From NCBI GenBank assembly GCA_019359695.1, contig JAHHGV010000037.1, forward strand, positions 1-64,000: a stretch of 64,000 bases of DNA. The letters are read 5' to 3'. Position 1 is the stretch's first letter; each line of letters starts with the position of its first letter. Source of the stretch: Brasilonema angustatum HA4187-MV1. GTDB lineage: Bacteria; Cyanobacteriota; Cyanobacteriia; Cyanobacteriales; Nostocaceae. Of the stretch, positions 57,386 to 64,000 are shown piece by piece. A program made the translations under genes and the position numbers. The notes beneath the pieces are model-generated. The model saw nothing but the letters and a program-made list of their open reading frames with translations, was not told where the DNA came from and ran no database searches.

Positions 57386-59302
57386 ATGCAAATTCAAGAT
57401 AAACAGACAGTTTCCCGTGTCAAGGATGCGATCGCCAAAAATCAGAACTATCTTCTTTCCATTCAATATCCTGATGGATACTGGTGGGCGGAGTTAGAAT
57501 CTAATGTTACCATCACTGCTGAGGTTGTCCTCCTTCATAAAATTTGGGGAACAGACCAAGAAAGACCATTACACAAAGTTGAAACATACCTACGTTCTCA
57601 ACAACGGGATCACGGAGGATGGGAACTTTTCTACGGTGATGGAGGAGAACTGAGCACTTCGGTTGAAGCATACATGGCGCTGAAGTTGCTTGGTGTACCA
57701 CAAACAGATGCCGCAATGGTAAAGGCGCGGAAGTTTATTTTAGAACGCGGTGGTATCAGTAAAACTCGCATTTTCACTAAGTTACACCTAGCCCTGATTG
57801 GATGCTACAGCTGGCAAGGCATTCCTTCTTTGCCACCTTGGGTGATGTTGTTGCCCGATAATTTTGTGTTTAACATTTACGAAATGTCAAGCTGGGCAAG
57901 GTCAAGTACTGTTCCTTTACTGATTGTTATTGACCGTAAACCTGTTTTTGTGACTGATCCCGCTATCACCTTGGACGAACTGTATGCCGAAGGTATCGAG
58001 CAAGCCCGGTATGAGTTGCCCAGCAATGGTGATTGGACAGATTTATTTATTACTCTCGATAAGACTTTTAAGTTAGCAGAAACTCTGAATCTTGTTCCTT
58101 TTCGCGAAGAAGGTATTCAAGCTGCAGAGCGTTGGATTTTAGAACGGCAAGAAGCAACGGGCGATTGGGGTGGTATTATTCCCGCCATGCTGAATTCACT
58201 GCTAGCTTTGCGCGCTCTGGATTATAACCCAGCCGACCCCATTGTAGAGCGAGGACTACGAGCAGTTGACAACTTTGCCATAGAAACTGCTGATACCTAC
58301 ACAGTGCAGCCTTGTATTTCCCCTGTATGGGATACTGGGTGGGCAATGCGAGCTTTGGTAGAGTCAGGTTTGGCACCAGATCATCCAGCTGTGGTTCGGG
58401 CTGGAGAATGGTTGTTGAGCAAGCAGATTCTGGACTACGGTGATTGGGCGATGAAAAATAAAAAAGGAAAACCGGGGGCTTGGGCGTTTGAGTTTGACAA
58501 CCGCTTTTATCCGGATGTAGACGACACTGCTGTTGTTGTCATGGCTCTCAATGAGGTGAAACTGCCGAATGAAAAATTAAAGCAAGCGGCGATCGCCCGT
58601 GCTGTCAACTGGACTGCATCTATGCAGTGTCAGCCCGGAGGTTGGGCAGCATTTGATTTGGACAATAATCAGGAGTGGCTCAACCTGCTTCCCTATGCTG
58701 ACCTCAAAGCCATGATTGACCCAAACACCGCTGATGTCACCGCTAGAGTTTTAGAAATGTTAGGCAGTGGCAATTTGTCAATAGATACACGTAACCAAGA
58801 ACGGGCAATTAGCTATCTCATACGCGAGCAAGAAACTGAAGGTTGCTGGTTTGGTCGCTGGGGAGTAAATTACATCTATGGAACCAGTGGAGTACTTTCA
58901 GCTTTGTCGTTAATTGCGCCAGAAAAGACGCAAGTCAGTATAGAACGGGGTGCTGCTTGGTTAGTTGGGTGTCAAAACTCAGATGGTGGCTGGGGCGAAA
59001 CTTGTCGCAGCTACAATGATCCAGCCCTTAAAGGACAAGGTCCTAGTACTGCTTCTCAAACAGCTTGGGCAATATTAGGTTTAATAGCAGCAGGTCAAGC
59101 AACTAGCAAGTTTGCTAAGCTTGCCATTGAGCGAGGAATTAGCTACCTGTTGGAAACTCAGCAATCTGATGGGACTTGGTACGAGGCAGATTTCACAGGG
59201 ACGGGGTTTCCTTGTCATTTTTATCTGAAGTATCACCTCTATCAACAATATTTTCCTTTATTAGCTCTGGGTCGTTATCAAGCGATATCAGAGTTGTGGT
59301 GA
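57386..59302 (+). CDS. shc: Squalene-hopene cyclase
   Basis: A 638-residue monotopic membrane enzyme that cyclises squalene to hopene and hopanol, which stiffen membranes. The catalytic DXDD motif is DVDDTAV near residue 377. Several QW repeats are visible (QYPDGYWWAE, QRDHGGWELFYG, QCQPGGWAAFDL, QNSDGGWGE and QQSDGTWYEA). The C-terminus GFPCHFYLKYHLYQQYFPL is typical. The length matches the family. It is divergent from hpnB. Confidence 0.97.
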   Translation: MQIQDKQTVSRVKDAIAKNQNYLLSIQYPDGYWWAELESNVTITAEVVLLHKIWGTDQERPLHKVETYLRSQQRDHGGWELFYGDGGELSTSVEAYMALKLLGVPQTDAAMVKARKFILERGGISKTRIFTKLHLALIGCYSWQGIPSLPPWVMLLPDNFVFNIYEMSSWARSSTVPLLIVIDRKPVFVTDPAITLDELYAEGIEQARYELPSNGDWTDLFITLDKTFKLAETLNLVPFREEGIQAAERWILERQEATGDWGGIIPAMLNSLLALRALDYNPADPIVERGLRAVDNFAIETADTYTVQPCISPVWDTGWAMRALVESGLAPDHPAVVRAGEWLLSKQILDYGDWAMKNKKGKPGAWAFEFDNRFYPDVDDTAVVVMALNEVKLPNEKLKQAAIARAVNWTASMQCQPGGWAAFDLDNNQEWLNLLPYADLKAMIDPNTADVTARVLEMLGSGNLSIDTRNQERAISYLIREQETEGCWFGRWGVNYIYGTSGVLSALSLIAPEKTQVSIERGAAWLVGCQNSDGGWGETCRSYNDPALKGQGPSTASQTAWAILGLIAAGQATSKFAKLAIERGISYLLETQQSDGTWYEADFTGTGFPCHFYLKYHLYQQYFPLLALGRYQAISELW

Positions 59303-63019: not shown

Positions 63020-63163
63020 ATGTCTACAAACACAGTAAAAACATCGGATGTAAAAGCAGTACCATTCTTCGCCCGCTTCTTGGAAGAGCAAGTTGCTGAA
63101 CAACCAAATACTGCTCCATATCCCAGTACTCTCAAGTTTCCTTCCGATGTGGAAGACCGCTAA
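63020..63163 (+). CDS. mdnA: Microviridin-type graspetide precursor peptide 1
   Basis: A 47-residue precursor read directly from the bases. The leader contains PFFARFLEEQ (15-24), the helix recognised by microviridin ATP-grasp ligases. The C-terminal core is TLKFPSDVEDR: Thr37, Lys39, Ser42, Asp43, Glu45 and Asp46 line up with the six residues cross-linked by two esters and one amide in microviridins. Tyr-to-Phe40 and Trp-to-Val44 differ from the usual TxKYPSDWE, and the last residue is Arg, not Tyr or Trp. GAGGAA precedes the ATG. The product would be a protease inhibitor. No ligase, transporter or acetyltransferase gene is in the window. Confidence 0.93.
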   Translation: MSTNTVKTSDVKAVPFFARFLEEQVAEQPNTAPYPSTLKFPSDVEDR

Positions 63164-63257
63164 ATTAGTGTGAGCTTGATCTAAAATTAAGCGAGTAGCA
63201 GTTATCAAATAACTGAAAAGTACTGATTACTATCAACCAATATCCAGAAATAATTCC

Positions 63258-63425
63258 ATGTCTACAAACGCAGTTAAAGCATCAGATGTGAAAGAGGTGC
63301 CATTCTTCGCTCGCTTTTTGGAAGAGCAAGTATCTCAACAGTCAGATAAGGATAAGTCAGATACTCCTCCTCCTCCTCCTCCCCCCTTCACTTTGAAGTA
63401 TCCTTCCGATTGGGAAGATCGCTAA
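63258..63425 (+). CDS. mdnA: Microviridin-type graspetide precursor peptide 2
   Basis: A 55-residue precursor. The leader is nearly identical to precursor 1 (MSTNAVKASDVKEVPFFARF). Between leader and core are a charged spacer (SDKDKSDT) and seven prolines (residues 37-43). The core FTLKYPSDWEDR has the canonical TxKYPSDWE form: Thr45, Lys47, Ser50, Asp51, Glu53 and Asp54 are the cross-link residues. The peptide ends in Arg, as in precursor 1. The two genes and their 3' flanks are similar, so the pair arose by tandem duplication, 94 bp apart. The core residue under the P1 position (Leu46) would affect which protease it inhibits. Confidence 0.95.
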   Translation: MSTNAVKASDVKEVPFFARFLEEQVSQQSDKDKSDTPPPPPPPFTLKYPSDWEDR

Positions 63426-63490
63426 ATAAGCGTGTTCTTCTACTCAAATCAAGGCAGTTGCAGTTATTCAATAACTAAAAACTACTTCTT

Positions 63491-63545
63491 AAAGCGTGAT
63501 CGTTACCATTTTAAGGGTACTATTAAATGGTAACGGTCATGCTTT
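63491..63545. repeat. Long imperfect hairpin after the microviridin precursors
   Basis: Two 21-nt arms (63491-63511 and 63525-63545) match at 19 positions when one is inverted, with a 13-nt loop. The inner CGTTACCATTT / AAATGGTAACG is perfect. It is about 65 bp after the second precursor stop. It could be a transcription attenuator between the precursors and downstream genes, or a short mobile unit. Confidence 0.75.
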
Positions 63546-63594
63546 AGTAATAAAGTACAGCTTTGGCAAGAAGTATTTTCCAAGGAGCGGTGAA

Positions 63595-63999: not shown

Positions 64000-64000
64000 C

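Follow-up and report, generated by a model that had tools for sequence, protein, structure and literature searches.

The microviridin system is well known, and the cluster described here adds one new core variant to it. Nostoc sp. TH1S01 encodes three tandem precursors in one cluster, from which three microviridins have been isolated (PMC8386392; this and the other reports cited are drawn on in part). Target choice depends on the residue at position 5, which lies between Thr and Lys and fits into the S1 pocket; Leu here is linked to inhibition of elastase and subtilisin, and a role of the indole in the recognition of thrombin is suggested (PMC7823629). In Nostoc punctiforme the leader is removed by NosP, an M1 peptidase whose gene lies outside the cluster. 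The enzyme cuts after LEEQ and at two further sites, after which trimming is slow; the ABC protein of a class I cluster is expected to be without a C39 domain (PMC13039773). When 40 Brazilian strains, Brasilonema included, were surveyed by LC-MS in a 2015 study, the 38 peptides reported were aeruginosins, anabaenopeptins and cyanopeptolins, with no microviridin in the parts of the report covered (PMC4483662), which is counted against the interpretation favored here. No description of the present cluster was found in the portions covered of the literature on microviridin precursors and leaders, tandem precursors and Brasilonema (PMC4483662 and PMC12593024 included); subscription journals lay mostly outside that scope, so it does not follow that the cluster is unpublished.

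The class I cluster of contig C86

The window analyzed is a stretch of 64,000 nucleotides from Brasilonema angustatum HA4187-MV1, positions 1-64000 of contig C86 (79,910 bases) in a genome of 8.5 Mb. The sequence-only reading had reported two frames of 47 and 55 residues with a PFFARFLEEQ leader and taken them for microviridin precursors. Both are present in the sequence where it placed them, and the identification is borne out: each exceeds the curated cut-offs of two precursor profiles (Pfam PF12559, Inhibitor_I10, 21 bits; NCBIfam NF033738, microvirid_RiPP, 26 bits), and the ligases are adjacent. The features of the cluster are as follows.

63020..63163 including stop, + strand: mdnA1, class I microviridin precursor 1, 47 aa (Inhibitor_I10 41.4 bits, microvirid_RiPP 34.9 bits)
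63062..63082, + strand: PFFARFL leader helix of precursor 1, for ligase recognition, with LEEQ at 63080-63091 (from the sequence; helix role from PMC7823629, LEEQ from PMC13039773)
63128..63160, + strand: core of precursor 1, TLKFPSDVEDR, with Val after PSD (from the sequence)
63258..63425 including stop, + strand: mdnA2, class I microviridin precursor 2, 55 aa (Inhibitor_I10 44.3 bits, microvirid_RiPP 46.2 bits)
63300..63320, + strand: PFFARFL leader helix of precursor 2, with LEEQ at 63318-63329 (from the sequence)
63366..63386, + strand: seven-proline linker of precursor 2, five CCT and two CCC codons
63390..63422, + strand: core of precursor 2, TLKYPSDWEDR (from the sequence)
about 63490-63546, + strand: predicted stem-loop with a 21-pair main stem, between precursor 2 and mdnB
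contig C86 64079-65071: MvdC/MdnB lactam ligase (TIGR04185 equivalog, 537.9 bits, cut-off 425)
contig C86 65184-66164: MvdD/MdnC lactone ligase (TIGR04184 equivalog, 562.5 bits, cut-off 475)
contig C86 66902-68923: ABC transporter, mdnE (ABC_membrane_2 and ABC_tran above cut-off)
contig C86 69128-69658: GNAT acetyltransferase, mdnD (Acetyltransf_3 and Acetyltransf_1 above cut-off)

PFFARFLEEQ is followed by a C-terminal TLKFPSDVEDR in precursor 1 and by a C-terminal PPPPPPPFTLKYPSDWEDR in precursor 2. Both precursors have the class I traits, namely the PFFARFL leader helix and one C-terminal TxKxPSDx(E/D)(E/D) core each, with the double glycine absent. Genome-wide, the Inhibitor_I10 cut-off is exceeded by these two precursors and by just one further match, on contig C56.

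The gene order on contig C86 is mdnA1, mdnA2, stem-loop, mdnB, mdnC, mdnE and mdnD. The four genes for which a search past position 64000 had been advised (mdnB, mdnC, GNAT and ABC) all lie on the same contig. A genome devoid of ATP-grasp ligases had been named as fatal to the proposal, and both MdnB and MdnC are encoded downstream. A C39 peptidase domain was sought in the ABC protein of the cluster at an E value of 0.001 and none was found. A scan with MdnB provided 81 related loci for comparison, the best 80 of 118 confirmed loci and this cluster. When 81 related stretches, many of them short, were searched with the proteins of this genome, the ABC protein was matched in 45 and the GNAT protein in 13; the stretch of the genus sister G021 contains an ABC match and none to this GNAT query. 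The low number of GNAT matches among related loci and the lack of one in the G021 stretch are counted against the favored interpretation, as is the gap of about 650 bases between precursor 2 and mdnB. Even so, this is a complete class I microviridin cluster of the ordinary kind, with the two genes encoding its precursors, and it is highly probable that the cluster as a whole yields two separate tricyclic serine-protease inhibitors.

The predicted stem-loop folds at -29.8 kcal/mol (z -8.67), and none of 200 dinucleotide shuffles was as stable. Nothing similar lies 3' of precursor 1 (z -0.91), and a search of Rfam across the cluster returned no family at the gathering score. Across five related loci, 98.1% of cells in the main stem are paired, compared with 28.7-53.3% when the partner is slid by 1-3 columns; two pairs are changed on both sides, both in G021, and none in the slid controls. 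The covariation score was reached by 5 of 500 column shuffles, which with five related sequences is modest evidence. A survey of related loci revealed hairpins of -15 kcal/mol or below 3' of 42 of 45 last precursors and 19 of 26 inner ones, and hairpins beating all ten base shuffles after 37 of 45 and 23 of 26, respectively. A hairpin is thus no speciality of the last precursor, as most inner precursors have one too. Stem-loops behind precursor genes are a general feature, and the idea that this one sets the precursor-to-enzyme ratio is a guess.

Several other elements were observed on the contig. A stretch of about 40 bases beginning GACTAGTTCCCGGTGCGAAACTCAGAAGGC is present twice between mdnC and the ABC gene (L001 6400-6570) and resembles a small repeat element. 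Near the contig end are tandem 123-aa frames with identical protein (L001 18705-19076 and 19200-19571), consistent with a recent duplication or an assembly effect. In the window itself, positions 57386-59302 hold a 638-aa frame that, judged by its repeats, we take to resemble a squalene-hopene cyclase.

Leaders, linker and cores of the two precursors

Recognized precursors are present in 75 of the 81 loci (the best 80 of 118 and this cluster) and number 102. Short precursors, of 65 aa or less, occur in 49 loci and number 74, of which 71 have the single-core pattern; the other three (L047, L048 and L054) depart from it, and the 28 precursors near mdnB that exceed 65 aa were not counted as class I. 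The counts that follow are of these 71 cores, which include the pair from the window and represent sequences rather than independent events. At least two short precursors are encoded in 14 of the 49 loci; tandem precursors are therefore common.

The seven-proline linker had been described as unusual, and it is the longest proline run among the 71 precursors, with six in one and five in two. The corresponding codons are four CCT and one CCC in Brasilonema sp. CT11 (five prolines) and two CCT and one CCC in G021 (three prolines); slippage in a trinucleotide repeat would explain the difference in length. Precursor 1 has LEEQ only, whereas precursor 2 has LEEQ and the seven prolines. This arrangement is relevant to a 2026 report that sets LEEQ/LAEQ leaders apart from proline-rich leaders, the latter thought to need another peptidase (PMC13039773). 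Read in this light, precursor 1 would be released at LEEQ by a NosP-like peptidase and precursor 2 by a peptidase for proline-rich leaders, a single cluster spanning both groups. Three related loci (L012, L041 and L044) do combine LEEQ precursors with a proline-rich precursor lacking LEEQ. However, LEEQ is intact in precursor 2 and one peptidase may suffice, so that two release routes appear rather unlikely. In either case, plain LEEQ and LEEQ-plus-polyproline leaders in one cluster make the two-group proposal testable within one organism.

A single peptidase serving both leaders is the preferred reading, and the genome contains a single M1 match, on contig C80. No exact GAMEN was found in the motif search of this genome; GGMEN appeared once the second residue was freed, together with HELAH-X18-E. 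M1 peptidases turned up in 8 of 14 control genomes as well, which makes the presence of one here weak evidence. By its motifs, the C80 protein is a candidate for the NosP counterpart. Contig C86 also encodes an 811-aa S9-type peptidase (L001 14270-16705), whose C-terminal part resembles a lasso-peptide isopeptidase and scores below the cut-off of that model. It was not favored as the leader peptidase, as it lies about 4.6 kb beyond the GNAT gene with long frames intervening and the known peptidase is M1-type.

The core of precursor 1 had been singled out for Val in place of a near-universal Trp. Among the 71 cores (best 80 of 118 loci and this cluster), PSD is followed by Trp in 41, Leu in 20, Phe in three, Cys in two, and Val, Ala, Gln, Asp and Ser in one each. 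Val is rare, as claimed, but Trp is far from universal. The C-terminal Arg, also thought unusual, is not: Arg closes 13 of the 71 cores, next to Tyr in 24 and Lys in 15. The DNA pattern for K-x-P-S-D-V-E-(D/E) occurs in one of 217 genomes of the family, namely this one, and its Trp version in 37, these matches not each being confirmed as precursors; both patterns permit between K and P only Phe, Tyr, Trp, Cys and one Leu codon, so that other forms are missed. A sample of the order contained the Val pattern in 3 of 388 genomes, this one included. The other two matches were rejected as cores, one being a long unrelated frame (L118) and the other a 31-aa frame without a leader (L119). The syntenic first core of G021 is TLKYPSDWEDY, with Trp and Tyr, and on this comparison the Val and the final Arg of precursor 1 were probably derived in this lineage. 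In both cores from the window the amide position, usually Glu, is Asp, and this is counted against the favored interpretation. Still, microviridin E, which has been isolated, has Phe replacing Trp and Asp second from the C-terminus as the amide position (PMC7823629, section 3), so there is precedent for both features.

The changes in precursor 1 could also mean that only precursor 2 is still productive and that precursor 1, in which Val replaces Trp and the ends are altered, is on its way to loss, as in Brasilonema sp. CT11, whose stretches (L008 and L126) contain the proline-rich precursor only. Its core differs from that of G021 at several residues, and the Val pattern is found in no other of the 217 family genomes. 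Decay is improbable, however, given that the leader and the ring-forming residues T, K, S, D, E and D are all intact and that cores without Trp are common (30 of 71), microviridin E also lacking it. Moreover, the leader compared with its G021 counterpart has a dN of 0.026, a dS of 1.30 and a dN/dS of 0.02, a rough estimate from a short stretch of 17 codons. For precursor 2 compared with G024, whose precursor is the same as that of CT11, dN/dS is 0.32 over the first 24 codons and 0.54 over all 55, likewise rough values from short stretches. Finally, the notion that both frames are chance reading frames with look-alike motifs can be discarded as having next to no probability: the frames are short, and a weak match to the Inhibitor_I10 family found elsewhere in the genome, on contig C30, is indeed false (it falls below the cut-off, and the frames there have no leader or core), but the scores here are well above curated cut-offs, the ligases adjoin and syntenic counterparts exist. 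With this cluster, a well-studied family of inhibitors gains two predicted products, and the DNA pattern of its Val core is present in none of the 216 other family genomes.

A multi-core locus with a truncated lactam ligase

The third profile match in the genome belongs to a second locus.

L006 8117-10215 (contig C56): three-core class II microviridin locus

Its precursor, of 92 aa, has three cores; MdnC is present as a full frame and MdnB as a fragment covering profile positions 1-118 of 318. The locus is thus unlike class II with both ligases, as MdnB is cut to about its first third. A multi-core precursor is present in six of seven genomes of the genus, and intact MdnB is missing from five of these six loci, scoring above the cut-off only in G025. 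The fragment beside the precursor has the same junction in G000, the present genome, and in G024, and in G024 it has ATC (L121 3286-3288) where the start codon of relatives is ATG, which suggests that the sequence is a decaying relic. In G021, MdnB by the multi-core precursor is a 91-position remnant with four stops. In G022 and G023, MdnB was not found beside the multi-core precursor, and none scored above the cut-off genome-wide. Of the best 29 loci of a family search, most of them multi-core, 26 belong to other genera; MdnB is present end to end beside the precursor in 23 of these, the contig ends in one, and none lies within about 1.5 kb in two.

G000, G024 and G021 have kept an intact MdnB in their class I clusters, and this enzyme could act in trans on the multi-core precursors. 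(A dN/dS value for class I MdnB of G000 and G024, calculated ungapped, is an artifact of an unaligned gap and was left out.) A split system is a tentative possibility, in which the class I MdnB would also form the amide in the C56 three-core precursor, and the products of G022 and G023 would be lactone-only and marinostatin-like. The review states in section 3 that the amide is conserved across all microviridin groups, yet elsewhere allows bicyclic forms if the ligase is missing (PMC7823629), and lactam-forming core segments have been lost among chryseoviridins (PMC8939145). The loss of intact lactam ligase from five of six multi-core loci in the genus constitutes a natural test of the amide requirement.

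Predicted products and the closest described systems

We infer the chemistry of the class I cluster, its peptidase, mature ends and targets as follows, with enzyme roles taken from the review (PMC7823629). The PFFARFL helix of each precursor would recruit both ATP-grasp ligases. MdnC (MvdD) would first form two esters, Thr-Asp and Ser-Glu, and MdnB (MvdC) would next form the Lys-Asp amide. The leader would then be cut after LEEQ and trimmed by a peptidase encoded elsewhere, plausibly the single M1 protein of the genome. The GNAT enzyme would acetylate the newly exposed N-terminus, and the ABC protein may serve as scaffold or exporter. Two separate tricyclic serine-protease inhibitors would result, each having Leu at its specificity position.

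The most direct precedent for separate products from tandem precursors is TH1S01, whose reported masses were reproduced here. Locus L033 was taken as its microviridin cluster a (same accession series), and masses were calculated for all C-terminal pieces of at least nine residues from its three precursors, allowing for 0-3 lost waters and optional acetylation. Each of the reported ions (844.8917, 874.8821 and 870.3707) corresponds to one sole piece within 0.02 m/z, with errors of -3.4, 1.2 and -0.3 ppm, respectively. All three pieces are acetylated, have lost three waters and start two residues ahead of the first ring residue. TH1S01 precursors are cut after TSP or TAP; by analogy, precursor 1, which contains TAPYPS, probably matures to a product like Ac-YPS-TLKFPSDVEDR. 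The product of precursor 2 would retain a shorter or longer proline-rich end. The calculated [M+H]+ values are 1641.791 for acetylated tricyclic YPS-TLKFPSDVEDR and 1641.770 for acetylated tricyclic PF-TLKYPSDWEDR, a difference of only 13 ppm. Since both cores have Leu at position 5, the sequence gives no prediction of different main targets; both products are probably of the elastase or subtilisin type. The earlier proposal of two different tricyclic inhibitors from one leader type thus holds in that separate products have precedent and the molecules likely differ, but does not extend to different main targets.

Cluster a of TH1S01 is, like the present one, of class I with tandem LEEQ precursors upstream of mdnB and mdnC. 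It differs in having three precursors, all ending in PSDWEEY, none proline-rich, and with Glu at the amide position (PMC8386392). The cluster of G021 (L127) has two precursors in the same order, an ABC gene, and MdnB and MdnC that are 90.6% and 95.1% identical to those described here. Unlike here, its first core ends in PSDWEDY, its second precursor has three prolines and Phe at position 5, and its stretch contains no GNAT match. The published mass of a Nostoc punctiforme precursor found no tricyclic match among the sequences in hand. Microviridins N3-N9 of Nostoc punctiforme, with NosP, share the LEEQ leader and the possibility of a long, variable N-terminal overhang, a likeness by description; that system has no N-acetyltransferase, whereas a GNAT gene is present here (PMC13039773). 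Fischerella sp. PCC 9339 resembles this cluster in gene content, with two precursors and genes for MvdC, MvdD, ABC and GNAT proteins, and differs in also encoding a GUN4-type protein (PMC4558948).
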